Positions 10,495 through 18,203 of a stretch of 64,000 bases of DNA are shown in pieces. This stretch comes from Methylophilus rhizosphaerae. GTDB lineage: Bacteria > Pseudomonadota > Gammaproteobacteria > Burkholderiales > Methylophilaceae. Location of the stretch: NCBI RefSeq assembly GCF_900100975.1, contig NZ_FNFX01000002.1, positions 186,001 to 250,000 on the forward strand, given 5' to 3'. Below the pieces are notes generated by a model. It saw only the letters and a program-made list of their open reading frames with translations, was not told where the DNA came from and did no database searches. Both the position numbers and the translations under genes were made by a program. Position 1 is the first letter of the stretch. The number at the start of each line of letters is the position of its first letter.

Positions 10495-11751
10495 GTGACC
10501 GTTATGTCTGGACTCTTTACCCAAATTTTTATTGCTGTCATTGTGATCAGCCTCGCTATCCGCCTCTGGCTGGGACTGCGCCATATCCGCCATATCCAGC
10601 AACATCGCGCACAAGTGCCTCCTGCCTTTAATCAGACCATCAGCCTGGAAGCGCATCAACGTGCCGCAGACTACACCTCAGCCAAGGTGAAACTGCGCCT
10701 GGGGGAAACGACCATGGAAATGGCCGTGCTGCTGGCCTTAACGCTAGGAGGTATCCTGCAGGGACTCGACCAGTTGTGGCAGCAATGGTTACCCGACCAT
10801 GAGATTATCCGCGGTGCACTGGTCATTTGCTCTGCCATGTTGATCTCCAGCGCGCTTACTTTGCCTTTTGAGTATATCCAGACCTTCAGCATTGATGAAA
10901 AATTTGGCTTTAACAAAATGTCGCGCAGCATGTTTTTCAGCGACCTGGTCAAACATACCATTGTCGGCCTGTTGCTGGGCGGCCCCATTTTGTTCGTGGC
11001 TTTATGGCTCATGCAAGGTGCTGGCGACTGGTGGTGGCTGTACCTGTGGCTGATCTGGAGTGCATTCAACCTGTTCATGCTGGCCGTGTATCCTATCTGG
11101 ATTGCGCCTCTGTTTAACAAATTCACCCCTATGGAAGACCAAAGCCTGAAAGCGCGTATTGAAGCCTTGCTGCGCAAATGCGGCTTTGCCAGCCAGGGCC
11201 TGTTTGTGATGGATGGCTCCACCCGCTCCGGTCATGGCAATGCCTACTTTACCGGCTTTGGTAAAAACAAGCGGGTGGTGTTTTTTGATACCTTGCTTGA
11301 AAAACTCAATGCAGATGAAATTGAAGCTGTCCTGGCACATGAATTGGGGCATTTCAAGCACCGGCACGTGATCAAGCGCATTATCATGATGTTCGGGTTA
11401 AGCCTGCTTGGCCTGGCGTTACTCGGTTTCCTGGTCACCCAGGATTGGTTCTACCATGGCCTGGGTGTGGCACAGGCCAGCAACCACATGGCACTGCTGT
11501 TATTTGTGATCGTGAGCCCGGTATTCATGTTTATCCTGCGCCCATTGCTGGCGGCTTATTCCCGCATCAATGAATTTGAAGCAGACCATTATGCCTCCCA
11601 GCAATCCAGGCCGCAGTTCCTGATTGATGCTTTGGTGAAACTATATCGTGACAATGCGTCTACCCTGACGCCTGACCCGTTGCATTCGGCTTTTTACGAC
11701 TCGCATCCGCCAGCCAGCTTGCGTATTGCAAAATTGCAAACCTACGCATGA
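10495..11751 (+). CDS. M48 family metalloprotease, Ste24/CAAX-protease type
   Basis: This integral-membrane zinc protease has 418 residues with several transmembrane segments (about 8-28, 105-125, 155-175, 180-200 and two after residue 300). The zinc motif is HELGH (282-286), and the third ligand is the Glu of EFEADHYA. Length and layout fit the M48A Ste24-like proteases of bacteria rather than HtpX (about 290 residues). A GTG at 10495 opens the frame; an ATG at 10504 is equally possible. Its stop overlaps the start of the cytochrome c gene (ATGA), so the two are coupled. The bacterial substrate is unknown. Confidence 0.9.
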   Translation: MTVMSGLFTQIFIAVIVISLAIRLWLGLRHIRHIQQHRAQVPPAFNQTISLEAHQRAADYTSAKVKLRLGETTMEMAVLLALTLGGILQGLDQLWQQWLPDHEIIRGALVICSAMLISSALTLPFEYIQTFSIDEKFGFNKMSRSMFFSDLVKHTIVGLLLGGPILFVALWLMQGAGDWWWLYLWLIWSAFNLFMLAVYPIWIAPLFNKFTPMEDQSLKARIEALLRKCGFASQGLFVMDGSTRSGHGNAYFTGFGKNKRVVFFDTLLEKLNADEIEAVLAHELGHFKHRHVIKRIIMMFGLSLLGLALLGFLVTQDWFYHGLGVAQASNHMALLLFVIVSPVFMFILRPLLAAYSRINEFEADHYASQQSRPQFLIDALVKLYRDNASTLTPDPLHSAFYDSHPPASLRIAKLQTYA

Positions 11752-12044
11752 AGGCCTGCCTCATCATCCTTTTATCTACCTTGATGATTAACGCACAGGC
11801 GGCTGACAGCGCTGATCTGGCCGCCGGTAAAAAGCTGGTCGAAACCCATTGCATCTCCTGCCATGCCAGCAGCTTTGGTGGCGATGGCAGTGGGATTTAT
11901 ACGCGGGAATACCGCAAAGTACGCTCACTCGCCGGCCTGAAAGCCCAGGTCACCAACTGTAACACCATGCTCAACCTCAAGTGGTTTGATGACGATGAGC
12001 AACAAGTGGTGCAGTATCTCAATCATACCTATTACCACTTTTAA
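11748..12044 (+). CDS. Small periplasmic cytochrome c
   Basis: This is a single-heme c-type cytochrome of 98 residues. A signal peptide (about 1-18, ending AQA) is followed by the heme attachment site CISCH (C35, C38, H39). Met74 in CNTMLNLKW is a possible sixth ligand. The start overlaps the stop of the M48 protease gene by 4 bases, and the stop is 1 base before rsgA, so the three form one tight transcription unit. Small cytochromes of this kind between orn/M48 and rsgA recur in betaproteobacteria, but no role is established that I know of. Confidence 0.88.
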   Translation: MKACLIILLSTLMINAQAADSADLAAGKKLVETHCISCHASSFGGDGSGIYTREYRKVRSLAGLKAQVTNCNTMLNLKWFDDDEQQVVQYLNHTYYHF

Positions 12045-13046: not shown

Positions 13047-14918
13047 TTACAGCCCGAAAACGTTCAGTGATCCACCGCCAGGCGCAGCGTTGTACTTGAC
13101 CAGTTCTTTGTAACCACCGGCAGCCCCCAGTGCGTCTGTCTCTGTGGTCATCCCCAGGTTCATCGCAACGCCAGCCCAGCCCCCGATACCGGAGAAGATA
13201 CCAACGTATTGTTTACCCTTGTTGCCGTAGGTGAATGCATTACCAATCGCACCGGAGCCCACCTGGAATTTCCACAGTTCCTTGCCGGATTTAGCATCAA
13301 CCGCCTTGAACCAGCGATCCAGGGTACCGTAGAACACCAAGTCAGAAGCGGTTGTCAGGGCGCCACTCCAGGCAGAGAATTTTTCTTTGTTGTACCAGAC
13401 TTTTTTGTTGGTCATTGGATCATAAGCACCGAAACCACCCATCACCCCGTCCGGACCAGCAAACATGGTCAGTGTCGCGCCCACCCATGGCTGGCCAGCC
13501 ACATATTTGGACTCAACTGGCTCGTATGTCATACAAACGTGGTTCAACGGGGAATACATCAGGCCAGTTTTTGGAGAGTAAGCAGCAGGTTGCTGGTCTT
13601 TGGTGCCCAACGCAGCCGGGCAGATACCTTTAGCGTTGTAGTCCTGGTGAGTAGAATAACGGCCGTCTTTGCTTGGTACACCTGTTTTCAGGTCTACGTC
13701 AGCCGCCCAGTTCACGAATTGGTGTACTTTTTCTGCAGCAATCAAAGTACCTGTGACGGCATTCCATGTGTAAGCGAAACCGTTACGGTCATGGTGCCAG
13801 GCATATGTTTTGCCACCTTTGTCGAACAGGATCACTTCATTCACACCGTCGTAGTCCCACTCATCGTGTGGCGTCATTTGCATCGCCCATTTGGCCATCC
13901 CGGTATCCAGGTCACGTGCAGTCACGGTCATGGACCATTTGTTGTCACCTGGACGTACGTCCGGGTTCCAGACAGAGGGGTTACCGGCACCATAATAAAC
14001 CAGATTGGTGCGGGCATCATATGGCCACCAGCCCCATACGGAACCGCCACCATGTTGCCAGCCGTCTTTGATTGCCTGCGGTTTTAACCAGGTACGTGTA
14101 CCCAGCTCTTTTTCGCCACCCTTGATCTGGTCGGCGGACAAGCGTTTGAAAGAACCACCCTCTTTGTTACCACCGTTCACGTCCTGGTAAACAGACAGTG
14201 CGTTATACAATGGATTATCTTTGTTGGTATTGGCGTCGTGCAGTGTTTCTGCATCCGGGCCTGTTGAGTACGCTTTCCATGCTAGGGAGCCATCTTTCAG
14301 GTTGTAGGCAGCGATAAAGCAGCGGACGCCGAATTCAGCGCCTGAACAACCGGTCAGTACTTTGTCCTTGATCACGTGTGGCGCGTTAGTGTTTGTTGCA
14401 CCGACTTTTGGATCCGTGTTTTTCACTTCCCAGATTTTCTTGCCGTCTTTGGCATCCAAGGCAACCAGCATACCGTCATTCTGTTGCAGGAAAATTTTAC
14501 CGTCTCCAAAACCCAGGCCCCGAGTCACGTTGTCACAGCACAGGACAGCTTGAACGCTTGGATCCTGTTTAGGGAAGTAAGACCAGACGATTTTCTGGTT
14601 ATCGTTCAGGTCCAGTGCATAGATATTGTTTGGGAAAGCAGAGACCAGGTACATCATGTTGCCAACAACGATAGGTGAGCCTTCATGGCCACGGTTTACA
14701 CCAGTAGCGAATGACCAGGCCATTTTCAGGTTTTTGATATTGCCTTTATTGATTTTTGCCAGCGTGCTGTAACCCTGGTTATTGTGTTGGCCACGCGGGT
14801 GAGCCCAGTTATTAGGGTCTTTCATCGCAGCTTCCTGGTCAGCGGCAGCAAATGCCAGTACTGGCATGGCCATTGCCACGCTTGCAGCAATACCAAAAGC
14901 AGTTTTCATTTTGATCAT
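13047..14918 (-). CDS. xoxF: Lanthanide-dependent methanol dehydrogenase XoxF
   Basis: This periplasmic PQQ enzyme oxidises methanol (and formaldehyde) and passes electrons to a cytochrome c. The 623 residues comprise a signal peptide (about 1-24, ending AFA) and an eight-bladed quinoprotein propeller with W-docking repeats. It has the adjacent-cysteine disulfide C127-C128 and the metal/PQQ ligands E195, N313 and D355. D357 in WDYDGVNE is the extra Asp that marks lanthanide-binding XoxF; calcium MxaF has Ala there. No xoxJ or xoxG is adjacent. Lone copies of this kind are typical of the XoxF4 clade in Methylophilaceae, but clade assignment needs a tree. The start at 14918 has a GGAGA site; an ATG at 14942 would precede the signal peptide. 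Confidence 0.95.
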   Translation of the reverse strand: MIKMKTAFGIAASVAMAMPVLAFAAADQEAAMKDPNNWAHPRGQHNNQGYSTLAKINKGNIKNLKMAWSFATGVNRGHEGSPIVVGNMMYLVSAFPNNIYALDLNDNQKIVWSYFPKQDPSVQAVLCCDNVTRGLGFGDGKIFLQQNDGMLVALDAKDGKKIWEVKNTDPKVGATNTNAPHVIKDKVLTGCSGAEFGVRCFIAAYNLKDGSLAWKAYSTGPDAETLHDANTNKDNPLYNALSVYQDVNGGNKEGGSFKRLSADQIKGGEKELGTRTWLKPQAIKDGWQHGGGSVWGWWPYDARTNLVYYGAGNPSVWNPDVRPGDNKWSMTVTARDLDTGMAKWAMQMTPHDEWDYDGVNEVILFDKGGKTYAWHHDRNGFAYTWNAVTGTLIAAEKVHQFVNWAADVDLKTGVPSKDGRYSTHQDYNAKGICPAALGTKDQQPAAYSPKTGLMYSPLNHVCMTYEPVESKYVAGQPWVGATLTMFAGPDGVMGGFGAYDPMTNKKVWYNKEKFSAWSGALTTASDLVFYGTLDRWFKAVDAKSGKELWKFQVGSGAIGNAFTYGNKGKQYVGIFSGIGGWAGVAMNLGMTTETDALGAAGGYKELVKYNAAPGGGSLNVFGL

Positions 14919-15276
14919 AGTATATCTCCAAAGATAAATCACAAGATTGCAATCTTGAACATAGGGAAAATTGCATTGTGCTTAAGTTATCACTGGTACT
15001 AGGATCCCAGAACTTGATGCGGCACATTACATCTGTTTAAGCGAATGTAACTGTAATATAAATAGATCACGGTGACACTCAGCCAGTTTGCGGTTTTATT
15101 CATGGGCCAGGCCGGGAGTTTTTCCAATACCTTTATCGAATTGCTTTTTTTTTGTATCATCTGTCCATTGGAGGACATGTCCTAGTGTGACCTTCAGGTA
15201 ATTGCGCCCTTGCATCAATCGCATGCATCAATAGCGGCGCTTTTTTACTTGATAATAAAAAAGGTAAACACAGGCC
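14919..15276. promoter_or_regulatory. xoxF/MocR divergent control region
   Basis: This 358-base gap has no gene. Read on the minus strand, a possible xoxF promoter is CTTAAG - 17 - TATGTT (bases 14961-14989), with TCCTAGTACCAGTGATAA immediately upstream. On the regulator side, TGTCC repeats at 15162-15166 and 15178-15182. The second copy is part of the perfect palindrome AGGACATGTCCT (15172-15183), followed by CCTAGTGTGACC. Paired repeats are usual operator forms for MocR-type regulators. A T-tract lies at 15145-15153. Confidence 0.5.
14942..14957. promoter_or_regulatory. Perfect 16-bp palindrome in the xoxF leader
   Basis: CAAGATTGCAATCTTG is identical to its reverse complement. It lies 24 bases upstream of the xoxF start, just before the ribosome site, and would be near or inside the 5' UTR. 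It could bind a dimeric regulator, or fold as an RNA hairpin near the ribosome binding site. No specific protein is suggested by the sequence. Confidence 0.45.
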
Positions 15277-16380
15277 GTGCTAAGACCCTGGCATCATTCA
15301 CTGGTACTGGACAAAAACTCCACATCCTCCATCCATCAACAATTGATCGGGCATTTTCGTCGCATGATTGAAGGTGGTTCATGGCTAGCCGGCAGCGCAT
15401 TGCCCAGTTCGCGCGACATTGCGCAGCGCCTCCGTATCAACCGCAAGACAGTTTCCCGTGTATATGAAGAATTGTCAGCACAGGGGTTGATTTATACGCA
15501 ACCCAAACGCGGTACCTTTGTTGCAGAAACAAGGGTGACAACATCTGTTGCGCAAAACGCTTACATGCATCATCAGGAGCCACTGCTGCCGGCACTCAGC
15601 ATCCAGCACCTGATTCAGAAAACCAGCCTGCACTACACCCGCCGCGCGGCGTTGCATATGCATAAACTGCAGCCTTATGACTATGATGCAACGGGCTTGT
15701 TTAGCCTCAGGCATATGCTGGCAAATTTACTGGCACATGAAAGAAGGTTTCTGGTATCTCCGGAGCATATTGCCTGCGGTAGCTGGCTGACGCTACAAAA
15801 CGCTCTGATCGACAGCCTGCGCCTTGCGGATGAAGGTTTACTGCTGGCAGATCACTCGGTCAGCCAGCCCCTTATAAGAAGCATGAAAAAACAAGGCATG
15901 ACCGTAATCCAGCTTCCCGCAACCAATGGCAACCAGGCACAAGCCCTGGCAGAACAGGTCGAAAAATATTGCATTAACTACCCCGTTTCAGCACTATGGT
16001 GTGATACTTCGGTACTGTTTAGCCGGGAAGATGGAGAATCCGCCCAAATCACCTTTGGCCAGAAATTATCTGATTATGGCTTGCTCTTAATCGATGACCA
16101 ACGCCACAGATTACCCTTCAGTGACACCATACCGCCGCTATCCAGCCGATATGCCAGAAGCTTTATGCTTGGCAGCTTGTATGGCAGTTTTTGTGATGCA
16201 TTCAACTTATGCTACCTGACCAGCAATGAAAGCCTTTCAGCAGAATTTCTGGCGGCACTCAATGTGCAGCAACAACATGCATCATTATTGAATATGCTCG
16301 CACAAAGCGAACTGATCAAGCGTGGCGAATATAAAAAGCTGATGACAACCATACATCATTTCCTGCAAGAAAACAGTTAG
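15277..16380 (+). CDS. GntR/MocR-like transcriptional regulator with degenerate aminotransferase domain
   Basis: This is a DNA-binding regulator of 367 residues. Residues 17-84 form a GntR winged helix (ALPSSRDIAQRL, NRKTVSRVYEEL, KRGTFVAE). The rest follows the type I aminotransferase fold of MocR proteins (LLIDDQRHRLPF matches their IEDDYDSEFRY segment). The PLP motif is ruined: GSLYGSFCDAFNLCYL stands where GTFSKTLFPALRLGYL is usual, so the Schiff-base Lys is Gly303 and the phosphate Arg is Asn310. It is also about 100 residues shorter than MocR at the C-terminus. The GTG start follows a weak AGG. It is divergent from xoxF, so control of xoxF or the PepSY gene is likely but inferred. Confidence 0.85.
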   Translation: MLRPWHHSLVLDKNSTSSIHQQLIGHFRRMIEGGSWLAGSALPSSRDIAQRLRINRKTVSRVYEELSAQGLIYTQPKRGTFVAETRVTTSVAQNAYMHHQEPLLPALSIQHLIQKTSLHYTRRAALHMHKLQPYDYDATGLFSLRHMLANLLAHERRFLVSPEHIACGSWLTLQNALIDSLRLADEGLLLADHSVSQPLIRSMKKQGMTVIQLPATNGNQAQALAEQVEKYCINYPVSALWCDTSVLFSREDGESAQITFGQKLSDYGLLLIDDQRHRLPFSDTIPPLSSRYARSFMLGSLYGSFCDAFNLCYLTSNESLSAEFLAALNVQQQHASLLNMLAQSELIKRGEYKKLMTTIHHFLQENS

Positions 16381-16513
16381 CCGCAATCGGGTTGGTTAAT
16401 AACAGCCAATCAGCAACCATTTGGCTAATATAAACCGCCAGAAATACAGGAAAAACTCCTATTTACATAAAAATAATGCTTTCCTATCAGGCACTTAAAA
16501 TTTAGCCTCCTGC

Positions 16514-16529
16514 TGGCATGTTAAATGCT
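16514..16529 (+). promoter_or_regulatory. Sigma-54-like -24/-12 element
   Basis: TGGCATGTTAAATGCT has GG at 16515-16516 and GC at 16527-16528 with the canonical 12-base step. It matches TGGCACG-N4-TTGC at most positions. The predicted start falls at about 16540, at the edge of a G6 run. No open reading frame follows. The match is seen; use is inferred. Confidence 0.4.
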
Positions 16530-16539
16530 GCTCTTTTAT

Positions 16540-16660
16540 AGGGGGGTGAACTATCACTAGGACCGGTAAGCACAGAAAATATGCGCTTATCGGGGTAGAC
16601 GCTCCCTAACCTGCATATTGATCTCATGCAAAAAAGGCACCGCAGATGCGGTGCCTTTTT
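16540..16660 (+). ncRNA. Candidate structured small RNA between the MocR-like gene and the PepSY gene
   Basis: The 325-base gap 16381-16705 has no gene but shows ordered structure. CCGGTAAGC (16563-16571) pairs with GCTTATCGG (16585-16593), with one G-U pair. TAGGG (16539-16543) can close an outer stem with CCCTA (16604-16608). TGCAT (16612-16616) pairs with ATGCA (16626-16630), and the strong terminator stem 16631-16660 follows. With the -24/-12 element upstream this would make an RNA of about 120 nt. It does not match any riboswitch or housekeeping RNA I know. The terminator alone may simply serve the two converging genes. Confidence 0.4.
16631..16660. terminator. Bidirectional intrinsic terminator before the PepSY gene
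   Basis: AAAGGCACCGCA pairs with TGCGGTGCCTTT (stem about 16633-16658), with A6 before and T5 after. It lies between the convergent MocR-like and PepSY genes. Confidence 0.88.
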
Positions 16661-16705
16661 ACTGGGCACTGCCCCGTATTAGAAAATACCGGCAGGCGAC
16701 CAGAA

Positions 16706-17233
16706 TTACTCTTGGCCGATTTGGTAGATTTCGTGATGTACTTCTACGATTTTACCGGTGCTTGCATCCACTTCGACTTTGATTTCTGTTTTATCTGCCT
16801 GCGCAATATCAAACTCATAAGACGCTTTACCATCAGACTCCAGCTCGTACTCGACTTCTACCACTGAACCTGGGTATTTTGCCAGCGCCGTTGCCTTCGC
16901 GTCTGCTTCACTCACTTTAGCCAATGCCTTGAACCTGGCTTCATCAGCAGTCACTTCTTCTTCTACTTCAATAATTTTGCCGGTCTGCACATTGCACTCG
17001 ATATCCCACGCAGTGCCATCTGGGGATTCCACATCAAATTCGTATACCAGGGTTTTGTTTTCGGTTTTGGCTTCCACTTTAACAATCTTGCCATCATGTT
17101 TGGACAAGGCGGCTTTTACGCATTTGCCCAGGCTATCATAAGCTTTCGGCTTGATTGCTTCATGGTCAGCAAATGCCTGACCGGATAATACACCGCACAA
17201 TACGGCAGTGATAAGTGACACTTTTATTTGCAT
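16706..17233 (-). CDS. Periplasmic double-PepSY protein, lanpepsy-like
   Basis: This is a secreted acidic protein of 175 residues. A signal peptide (1-22, SGQAFA) precedes two PepSY repeats, about 33-92 and 103-166. Each ends in the same strand pattern ([10 protein letters not shown] ... [22 protein letters not shown] ... [12 protein letters not shown]) and is very rich in Asp and Glu. C38 and C80 could form a disulfide. In Methylobacillus flagellatus a two-PepSY periplasmic protein, lanpepsy, binds lanthanides and belongs to the lanthanide response. Family layout, acidity and nearness to xoxF make this a likely homologue; binding here is inference. The ATG at 17233 has a strong AAGGAGA site, so the longer frame from 17257 is not used. 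Confidence 0.85.
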
Positions 17234-17408
17234 GTTGATCTCCTTGTAGAAAGTCATGATTTAAGATGCAACGCGTGAGCTAGGACTCCCGCATCACTAT
17301 TCATAACGCCACAGAGAATATCAAAAAGGCAGGAAGCCGGTGGAAATATTACACCCTGTTAACAAAATGGTTAAAAACAACCACTTATAAGCAATTTATG
17401 GAGCTGGA

Positions 17409-18203
17409 CTACACAGCAACTGGCGCCCTGATTGCTGGATATGGGTCATAATTTTCCAGCGTAAAGTCTTCAAACCGGAACGCAAAAATATCTTTCACTT
17501 CCGGATTAATGCGCATGGTCGGCAATGCGCGTGGTGAACGCGACAACTGCTCCTGTACCTGCTCCATATGATTATTGTAGATATGTGCATCCCCCAGGGT
17601 ATGCACAAAATCGCCGAGCTGCAAGCCGCAGACTTGAGCCACCATCATGGTCAGCAAGGCGTAAGAAGCAATATTGAATGGTACGCCAAGGAAAATATCT
17701 GCGCTACGCTGATAAAGCTGGCAGGAAAGCTTGCCATCGGCCACATAGAACTGGAAGAACGCATGGCAAGGGGGTAGTTTCATCTGGTCCACATCGGCCA
17801 CATTCCAGGCAGACACAATCAACCGGCGTGAATCCGGTGTGTTTTTGATCTGGTTAATCACCTGCGTAATCTGGTCAATATGCGACCCATCCGGTCTCGG
17901 CCAGTTACGCCATTGATAACCATACACCGGGCCCAGGTTGCCTTCGGCATCCGCCCATTCATCCCAGATGCTGACGCCATGCTCTTTCAGGTAAGCAATA
18001 TTGGTACTGCCCTGCAAGAACCACAGCAACTCATGAATAATAGATTTGAGATGCACCTTTTTGGTGGTCAGTAGAGGAAAGCCTTCTGCCAGGTTAAAGC
18101 GCATCTGGTAGCCAAATACGGAAATCGTGCCAGTGCCGGTACGGTCGGTTTTCTGGTGCCCGTGTGCAAGCACATGATTAAGCAGGTCGTGATACTGTTG
18201 CAT
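17409..18203 (-). CDS. thyA: Thymidylate synthase
   Basis: The enzyme makes dTMP from dUMP using methylenetetrahydrofolate. The 264 residues equal the E. coli length, and the catalytic Cys is C146 in [12 protein letters not shown], the same number as in E. coli. The phosphate-binding arginines ([18 protein letters not shown]) and the nucleotide site [13 protein letters not shown] are intact, as is the conserved C-terminus IRAPVAV. It is last in the minus-strand run alaA-hom-thrC-thyA, 17 bases after thrC. Confidence 0.97.

Follow-up and report, generated by a model that had tools for sequence, protein, structure and literature searches.

A predicted sigma-54-type small RNA in the conserved xoxF–lanpepsy locus of Methylophilus rhizosphaerae

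A 64,000-nucleotide (nt) stretch of Methylophilus rhizosphaerae contig NZ_FNFX01000002.1 (the window, whose numbering is used throughout) carries a xoxF gene for a predicted lanthanide-dependent methanol dehydrogenase, a divergent MocR-like regulator gene and a gene for a lanpepsy-like PepSY protein (pepSY), and between the last two a conserved element with the features of a small RNA (sRNA) gene. This locus is probably a regulatory island for lanthanide methylotrophy, in which a trans-acting sRNA driven by sigma-54 would tune the translation of XoxF isozymes and of lanpepsy. The evidence consists of the genes and their synteny, the RNA fold, a promoter pattern and complementarities to messenger RNAs (mRNAs), all read from the DNA. 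An earlier sequence-only reading had joined xoxF, the regulator and pepSY into one lanthanide locus, and much of it stands: the three genes lie where it placed them, the synteny whose lack it had named as a counter-argument is kept among relatives, the regulator is MocR-like and the PepSY protein is a probable relative of lanpepsy. What it overlooked is the conserved sRNA, antisense to xoxF and pepSY starts, and its description of the three genes as unbroken by others holds for protein genes only (no credible additional one of at least 80 amino acids (aa) lies between them).

A conserved RNA element with its own promoter

The regulator, searched against 187 Methylophilaceae genomes, matched in 19 at E 1e-20. 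All 15 Methylophilus loci with a short regulator (the M. rhizosphaerae locus included) show the order xoxF, divergent regulator, convergent pepSY and thyA, and because the four genes lie together in every one of them the arrangement is more than chance. In the other 4 of the 19 loci the divergent neighbor of xoxF is a full-length relative of the regulator, with pepSY nearby in one (L021). pepSY was not found near xoxF in three Methylophilus loci (L069–L071), even in stretches of 11–12 kb; since these represent 3 of the 18 Methylophilus genomes carrying the sRNA, pepSY is not an obligate member of the locus. Alignment of the spacer between regulator and pepSY reveals a conserved element amid variable sequence, present in all 19 synteny loci.

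For the M. rhizosphaerae copy of this element the predicted folding energy is −55.4 kcal/mol (z = −7.0). When 15 Methylophilus copies are plainly aligned, 97.1% of cells are paired, with two-sided changes at 4 of 23 pairs; an alignment of 37 sequences that includes second-class copies (see below) and those of Methylotenera, fitted to the fold model and hence leaning toward it, has 94.5% of cells paired and two-sided changes at 18 of 23 pairs. None of 500 shuffles scored as high, and sliding the partners of the 37 sequences gave 42.5–53.4% pairing. The cut-off for this alignment (E 0.0004) was set after inspection of the matches and left out 27 of 64, the weaker ones, which lay on the antisense strand or at pepSY starts, apart from one true copy (L067). 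An unpaired bulge, ACUAGGA, is unchanged in all 37 rows while the surrounding helices vary. A search of positions 14900–17450 against Rfam gave nothing over threshold (best bit score 24.2, gathering score 50).

A first model of the RNA (R1) matches 25 of the 187 Methylophilaceae genomes and a refined one (R2) 34, in 3 of 24 genera, including 18 of 22 Methylophilus genomes. Among 399 genomes of the order just three match, all Methylophilus, and viral contigs gave no match to the model. A pattern scan of GTDB contigs found the sRNA in Methylophilus methylotrophus DSM 46235, other Methylophilus, Methylotenera versatilis 7 and metagenome-assembled genomes, the named M. methylotrophus and M. versatilis records carrying it in this same locus. 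The model supports 19 of the 20 pattern matches; the remaining one, from Bacteroidia (L090), lacks that support and was dropped, and one locus missed by the text pattern (L056) matches the model.

On the Methylotenera side, 17 loci (L046, L062–L068, L207–L215) have a full-length regulator beside the RNA in 13, xoxF in 13 and pepSY in 11, counted over the available stretch of each locus only. One of them has pepSY and thyA and no regulator in the remaining 1.5 kb (L208), and another is without xoxF, regulator and pepSY (L212). In genome G139 one copy lies about 450 nt from an xoxF start with no regulator match between (L062), and another beside pepSY (L046). Methylophilus genomes also hold second-class RNA copies elsewhere (L049–L061, L216, L217) with the same bulge and often the same tail, 10 of 15 keeping GCAUAUUGAU in it. 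These share another upstream pattern (about CTCCYATA ... CATGATG), and one (L049) adjoins open reading frames (ORFs) that we read as ArsR-like and PilZ-like.

The promoter of the sRNA is, by its pattern, of the sigma-54 type. A -24/-12 form, GGYAY-N7-GC, precedes the RNA at a nearly constant place in 31 of 31 first-class loci (31 of the 34 sRNA-bearing genomes), and a GGTTG-N4-CAACC dyad with at most two mismatches lies 90–136 bp upstream of the -24 box in all 31, against 15 of 620 simple shuffles. The strict form precedes only 1 of 15 second-class copies; the looser word GG-N10-GC is weak alone, being also found upstream of 7 of these 15, at varying places. M. rhizosphaerae encodes seven full sigma-54 activators, one of which has a dyad-like word at its locus (L224). 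In 665,387 scanned bases of this genome, no strict dyad had a strict -24/-12 site after it.

Complementarity to start regions and leaders

Downstream of the hairpin, the sRNA tail is antisense to several xoxF starts and to the start of the gene for the PepSY protein, a likely lanthanide binder, which suggests that RNA pairing helps control rare-earth use. It complements the start region of the xoxF on contig C7 (GGAGATCAATATGCAAG) over 14 unbroken nt, and up to 19 in relatives. Allowing one mismatch at most, GAGATCAATATGCA has five sites genome-wide: the RNA itself, three xoxF starts (on C7, C5 and C9) and that of pepSY; with up to two mismatches it has 42 matches, against 1 for the reversed pattern. 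The three xoxF start regions are not independent, as the genes are paralogues, and pepSY is unrelated to them. A wider count, of the matches listed for 10 of the 22 Methylophilus genomes searched and assigned by coordinates, places all 28 sites of GGAGATCAATATGCA with at most one mismatch at 12 xoxF starts, 9 pepSY starts and 7 RNA copies.

In all 17 genomes with both the RNA and a second xoxF, the tail scores 10.5–19 (mean 16.3) against the start region of the same genome, whereas 342 shuffled start regions average 5.8 and reach 10.5 at most. Three genomes (G066, G069 and G078) have AAC for AAU at the start and GUU for AUU in the RNA, a matching change on both partners that counts as one event. 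When ORFs are ranked with one start each, the C7 and C5 xoxF genes exceed all 391 background ORFs; this ranking was adopted after a lenient one, also reported below. The starts of the 71% xoxF and of the MxaF-like gene (see below) are not tail targets in the same comparison, and a porin-like gene at C8:363395 has a weaker match. Lanpepsy start pairing reaches 15 of 15 in G062. Five Methylotenera RNAs (L207, L209, L211, L213 and L066) have a shorter tail mostly keeping UUUGCAU, and because this complements AUGCAAA a start-codon target may persist there with another sequence.

The bulge offers a second surface: its ACUAGGA complements UCCUAG, a word found in the leaders of the three neighboring genes xoxF, regulator and pepSY. 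The 200 nt ahead of the gene contain CCTAG on the sense strand for 30 of 31 xoxF, 30 of 30 regulator and 19 of 25 pepSY genes, compared with 9 of 327 background ORFs in the M. rhizosphaerae genome; in the opposite orientation the word is found at 0, 5 and 0 of these genes, respectively, and at 14 of the 327. The xoxF site sits between CUGG and CCAG, or close variants, and could form a small hairpin. As a DNA word alone CTAGGAC is not significant (4 in the window, 2.3 expected), and ACTAGGAYNNNNC with one mismatch is rarer than expected (5 against 12.2), the word gaining weight only through orientation and conservation. The form DTCCTAGTR has 11 sites in the genome, 3 of them in this locus, and the other eight, genome-wide, pointed to no obvious additional target.

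A sizeable minority possibility is that CCTAG serves as a DNA operator, bound by the MocR-like protein or another regulator, the sRNA acting through its tail only. The sites do lie near promoters, with common flanking letters, they are kept together with the regulator, and CTAG, a near-palindrome, would suit a dimeric protein. Two observations speak against it: relative to transcription, all three mRNAs carry the word in one orientation and the RNA in the other, as antisense pairing predicts, and second-class RNA copies elsewhere keep the bulge at the same unpaired place.

The genes of the locus and the other XoxF enzymes

The features of the locus are collected in Table 1.

Table 1. Positions of genes, RNA elements and predicted sites of the M. 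rhizosphaerae locus
Feature	Positions	Strand
xoxF, predicted lanthanide-dependent methanol dehydrogenase, 623 aa, D355/D357	13047–14918	−
xoxF leader site CUGG-GAUCCUAGUA-CCAG, possible small hairpin showing UCCUAGU, complementary to sRNA bulge	14993–15010	−
Conserved CCAG repeats between the divergent promoters, candidate regulator operator	15080–15110	
Regulator leader site with GUCCUAGUG, complementary to sRNA bulge	15173–15189	+
Degenerate MocR-like regulator, 367 aa: GntR domain, remnant aminotransferase domain without cofactor lysine	15277–16380	+
Upstream dyad region (GGTTG-N4-CAACC type, two mismatches here), probable sigma-54 activator site	16390–16436	
Sigma-54-type -24/-12 promoter of sRNA, TGGCATGTTAAATGCT	16514–16529	+
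Predicted sRNA gene (5' end from -12 box, 3' end from terminator)	16540–16660	+
ACUAGGA bulge of sRNA	16556–16562	+
sRNA tail CCUGCAUAUUGAUCUC, antisense to xoxF and pepSY start regions	16610–16625	+
Intrinsic terminator of sRNA, 14-bp arms	16631–16660	+
pepSY, lanpepsy-like secreted double-PepSY protein, 175 aa	16706–17233	−
pepSY ribosome-binding site and start GAGAUCAACAUGCA, 13 of 14 complementary to sRNA tail	17227–17243	−
pepSY leader site with GUCCUAG, complementary to sRNA bulge	17278–17289	−

By its domain (604 bits on TIGR03075, the family of pyrroloquinoline quinone (PQQ) methanol/ethanol dehydrogenases, cut-off 480), its best solved relatives (the lanthanide-dependent XoxF chains 6dam and 6oc5) and the lanthanide-marking Asp that the sequence-only reading had pointed out (DEWDYDG, giving D355 and D357 in the 623-residue form), the local XoxF is an ordinary member of the XoxF-type methanol dehydrogenases. 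M. rhizosphaerae carries five such genes, the local one and four elsewhere, all with DEWDYDG, together with one MxaF-like gene (DEWDFAG) and one more distant PQQ enzyme; since the four genes elsewhere also encode the lanthanide Asp, the cell has further lanthanide systems besides this locus. The 71% xoxF has its own consensus sigma-54-type promoter, TGGCACGTGCATTGCA, and is adjoined by a 635-aa GAF-type sigma-54 activator (L096, L229; G000:C5:247562-249403 and 250686-251177), which makes sigma-54 control of lanthanide enzymes plausible; the upstream dyad of the sRNA was not found at that locus. Another xoxF (85%; G000:C9:60712-62580, L095) has a weak divergent MocR-like match (24%), so that xoxF–MocR pairs may occur twice in the genome. 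Roughly 1 kb past the 3' end of the local xoxF, across rsgA, lies a 98-aa c-type cytochrome ORF (11748–12044, plus strand).

The regulator resembles the MocR/GabR family in its GntR domain (PF00392 at 47.8 bits, cut-off 27) and in a weak alignment along the full length of GabR, and differs from it by a lost lysine for pyridoxal 5'-phosphate (PLP), a missing C-terminus and the lack of a Pfam aminotransferase match. The GabR lysine motif GTFSKSL reads GSLYGSF in M. rhizosphaerae, with G at the lysine position; in an alignment of seven proteins the lysine is absent from all six Methylophilus regulators, while a Methylotenera-type regulator (L063) retains it (GSFSKILAPGF). A Pfam search matched Aminotran_1_2 in this protein and in a full-length Methylophilus relative (L069), and gave no match to it in the M. 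rhizosphaerae regulator, where the domain is truncated. Because the lysine is missing from the Methylophilus rows and kept in L063, and Aminotran_1_2 is found in L063 and L069 and not in the M. rhizosphaerae protein, the regulator looks like a MocR descendant from which first the cofactor lysine and then the C-terminus disappeared, and the earlier label of MocR-like thus needs qualification. The CCAG repeats between the divergent promoters are a candidate operator for it. A literature search returned no paper joining xoxF with MocR, or xoxF4 with GntR.

The PepSY protein is, as had been read from its sequence, secreted, double and acidic: it has an N-terminal signal-like stretch, two PepSY stretches (95 bits), and 34 acidic against 19 basic residues in positions 23–175. 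Among solved chains its sole strong match is PDB 9vy3 (91 of 148 aligned columns identical, 61%), one of eight PDB entries of the same sequence, which, judging from the name and kind of the entry, is most likely lanpepsy. A structure search with the PepSY model placed generic PepSY proteins near the top, and 9vy3 is absent from the best 50 listed. As a putative lanthanide-binding protein it resembles lanpepsy (LanP) of Methylobacillus flagellatus, a secreted acidic two-PepSY protein of about 19 kDa, and differs in that its gene sits beside xoxF, the regulator and the sRNA.

Proposed regulation, alternatives and known systems

In the proposed mechanism, a sigma-54 activator would switch on transcription of the sRNA, a long hairpin with the unpaired ACUAGGA bulge followed by tail and terminator. 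The tail would cover the ribosome-binding site and start codon of the alternative xoxF and lanpepsy mRNAs, most likely blocking their translation, probably with the assistance of Hfq, which the M. rhizosphaerae genome encodes, and the bulge would contact the UCCUAG that the local xoxF, regulator and lanpepsy mRNAs carry in their 5' leaders. The activator would thereby tune the choice of XoxF isozymes and the amount of lanpepsy in response to a signal that may be lanthanide, methanol, or the nitrogen or energy state, with the MocR-like protein acting on xoxF transcription. More tentatively, at what we judge to be slightly under even chances, the dual-surface sRNA could be a post-transcriptional lanthanide switch, with a dedicated sigma-54 activator, that selects among the five XoxF isozymes and sets lanpepsy, the PLP-free MocR descendant being a new regulator of lanthanide use and the second-class copies bringing a second signal to the same targets.

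Several points weigh against the proposed regulation by an sRNA. All support for the sRNA comes from sequence, and it was not found in 4 of the 22 Methylophilus genomes, which are drafts. Pairing of tail and xoxF within a genome is barely above that across species (16.3 against 15.4), an insertion in the tail of G069 shortens its xoxF match, and most Methylotenera tails are without the Methylophilus tail sequence. The lenient ranking by duplex energy, in which 2, 11, 50 and 70 of 391 ORFs were at or below the C7, C5 and C9 xoxF genes and lanpepsy, respectively, fails to single out the last two. With one start per ORF these are likewise not unique, 13 pairs being reached by 3 of 391 (lanpepsy included), and the start of the local xoxF is no target of the tail; in G068, lanpepsy start pairing extends over only 8 nt.

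Two other explanations concern the direction of the effect and the existence of the RNA. It is unlikely that the sRNA activates, leader pairing opening the ribosome-binding site or stabilizing the mRNA, or that its AGGA bulge titrates a CsrA-like protein. The distance of the leader CCTAG sites from the start codon (39–118 nt) and the invariance of AGGA in the 37 rows would fit these schemes, but the most extensive pairing overlies the ribosome-binding site and start codon, where repression usually acts, and each RNA core has one such GGA, whereas Csr sponges usually carry several. Very improbable is that there is no regulatory RNA, the MocR-like protein alone switching xoxF, the PepSY protein storing or sensing the metal and the intergenic conservation being a 3' untranslated region or terminator: the divergent pair is conserved, a probable lanpepsy relative is present and a terminator is needed between regulator and pepSY, yet a mere terminator leaves unexplained the element's own promoter pattern in 31 of 31 loci, the two-sided changes in the fold and the way the tail fits, in antisense, xoxF starts that lie on other contigs.

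The lanthanide switch is described as protein signaling in the excerpted text of PMC11845868, which also gives the protein levels of two two-component systems of M. flagellatus as unchanged with lanthanum. No sRNA for xoxF is described in the excerpts of PMC12482762, PMC11845868, PMC6028718, PMC12403871, PMC6373157 and PMC8262872. Titles and abstract openings retrieved for xoxF or lanthanides with sRNA, riboswitch or sigma-54 name no such RNA or regulator, and the wider literature may know one. An sRNA with its best whole-genome matches at xoxF and lanpepsy starts makes the choice of Methylophilaceae among their XoxF enzymes directly testable in Methylophilus methylotrophus and Methylotenera versatilis; if the proposed regulation is true, it would extend rare-earth metabolism by a layer of RNA control and offer a handle on strains for rare-earth biotechnology.

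Sigma-54-dependent trans-acting sRNAs include Qrr of Vibrio, and NrsZ and CrcZ of Pseudomonas. The predicted RNA resembles them in its sigma-54-type promoter, its own terminator and, like Qrr, its antisense to ribosome-binding sites, and differs in its putative targets (xoxF and lanpepsy), in a second pairing surface in the bulge and in having no Rfam match over threshold. It would likewise set XoxF levels as do the protein lanthanide switches MxbDM, MxcQE, MxaY/MxaB and PedS2/R2; those, as far as the excerpt of PMC11845868 describes them, are two-component protein systems, whereas here an sRNA and a MocR relative would take this role.

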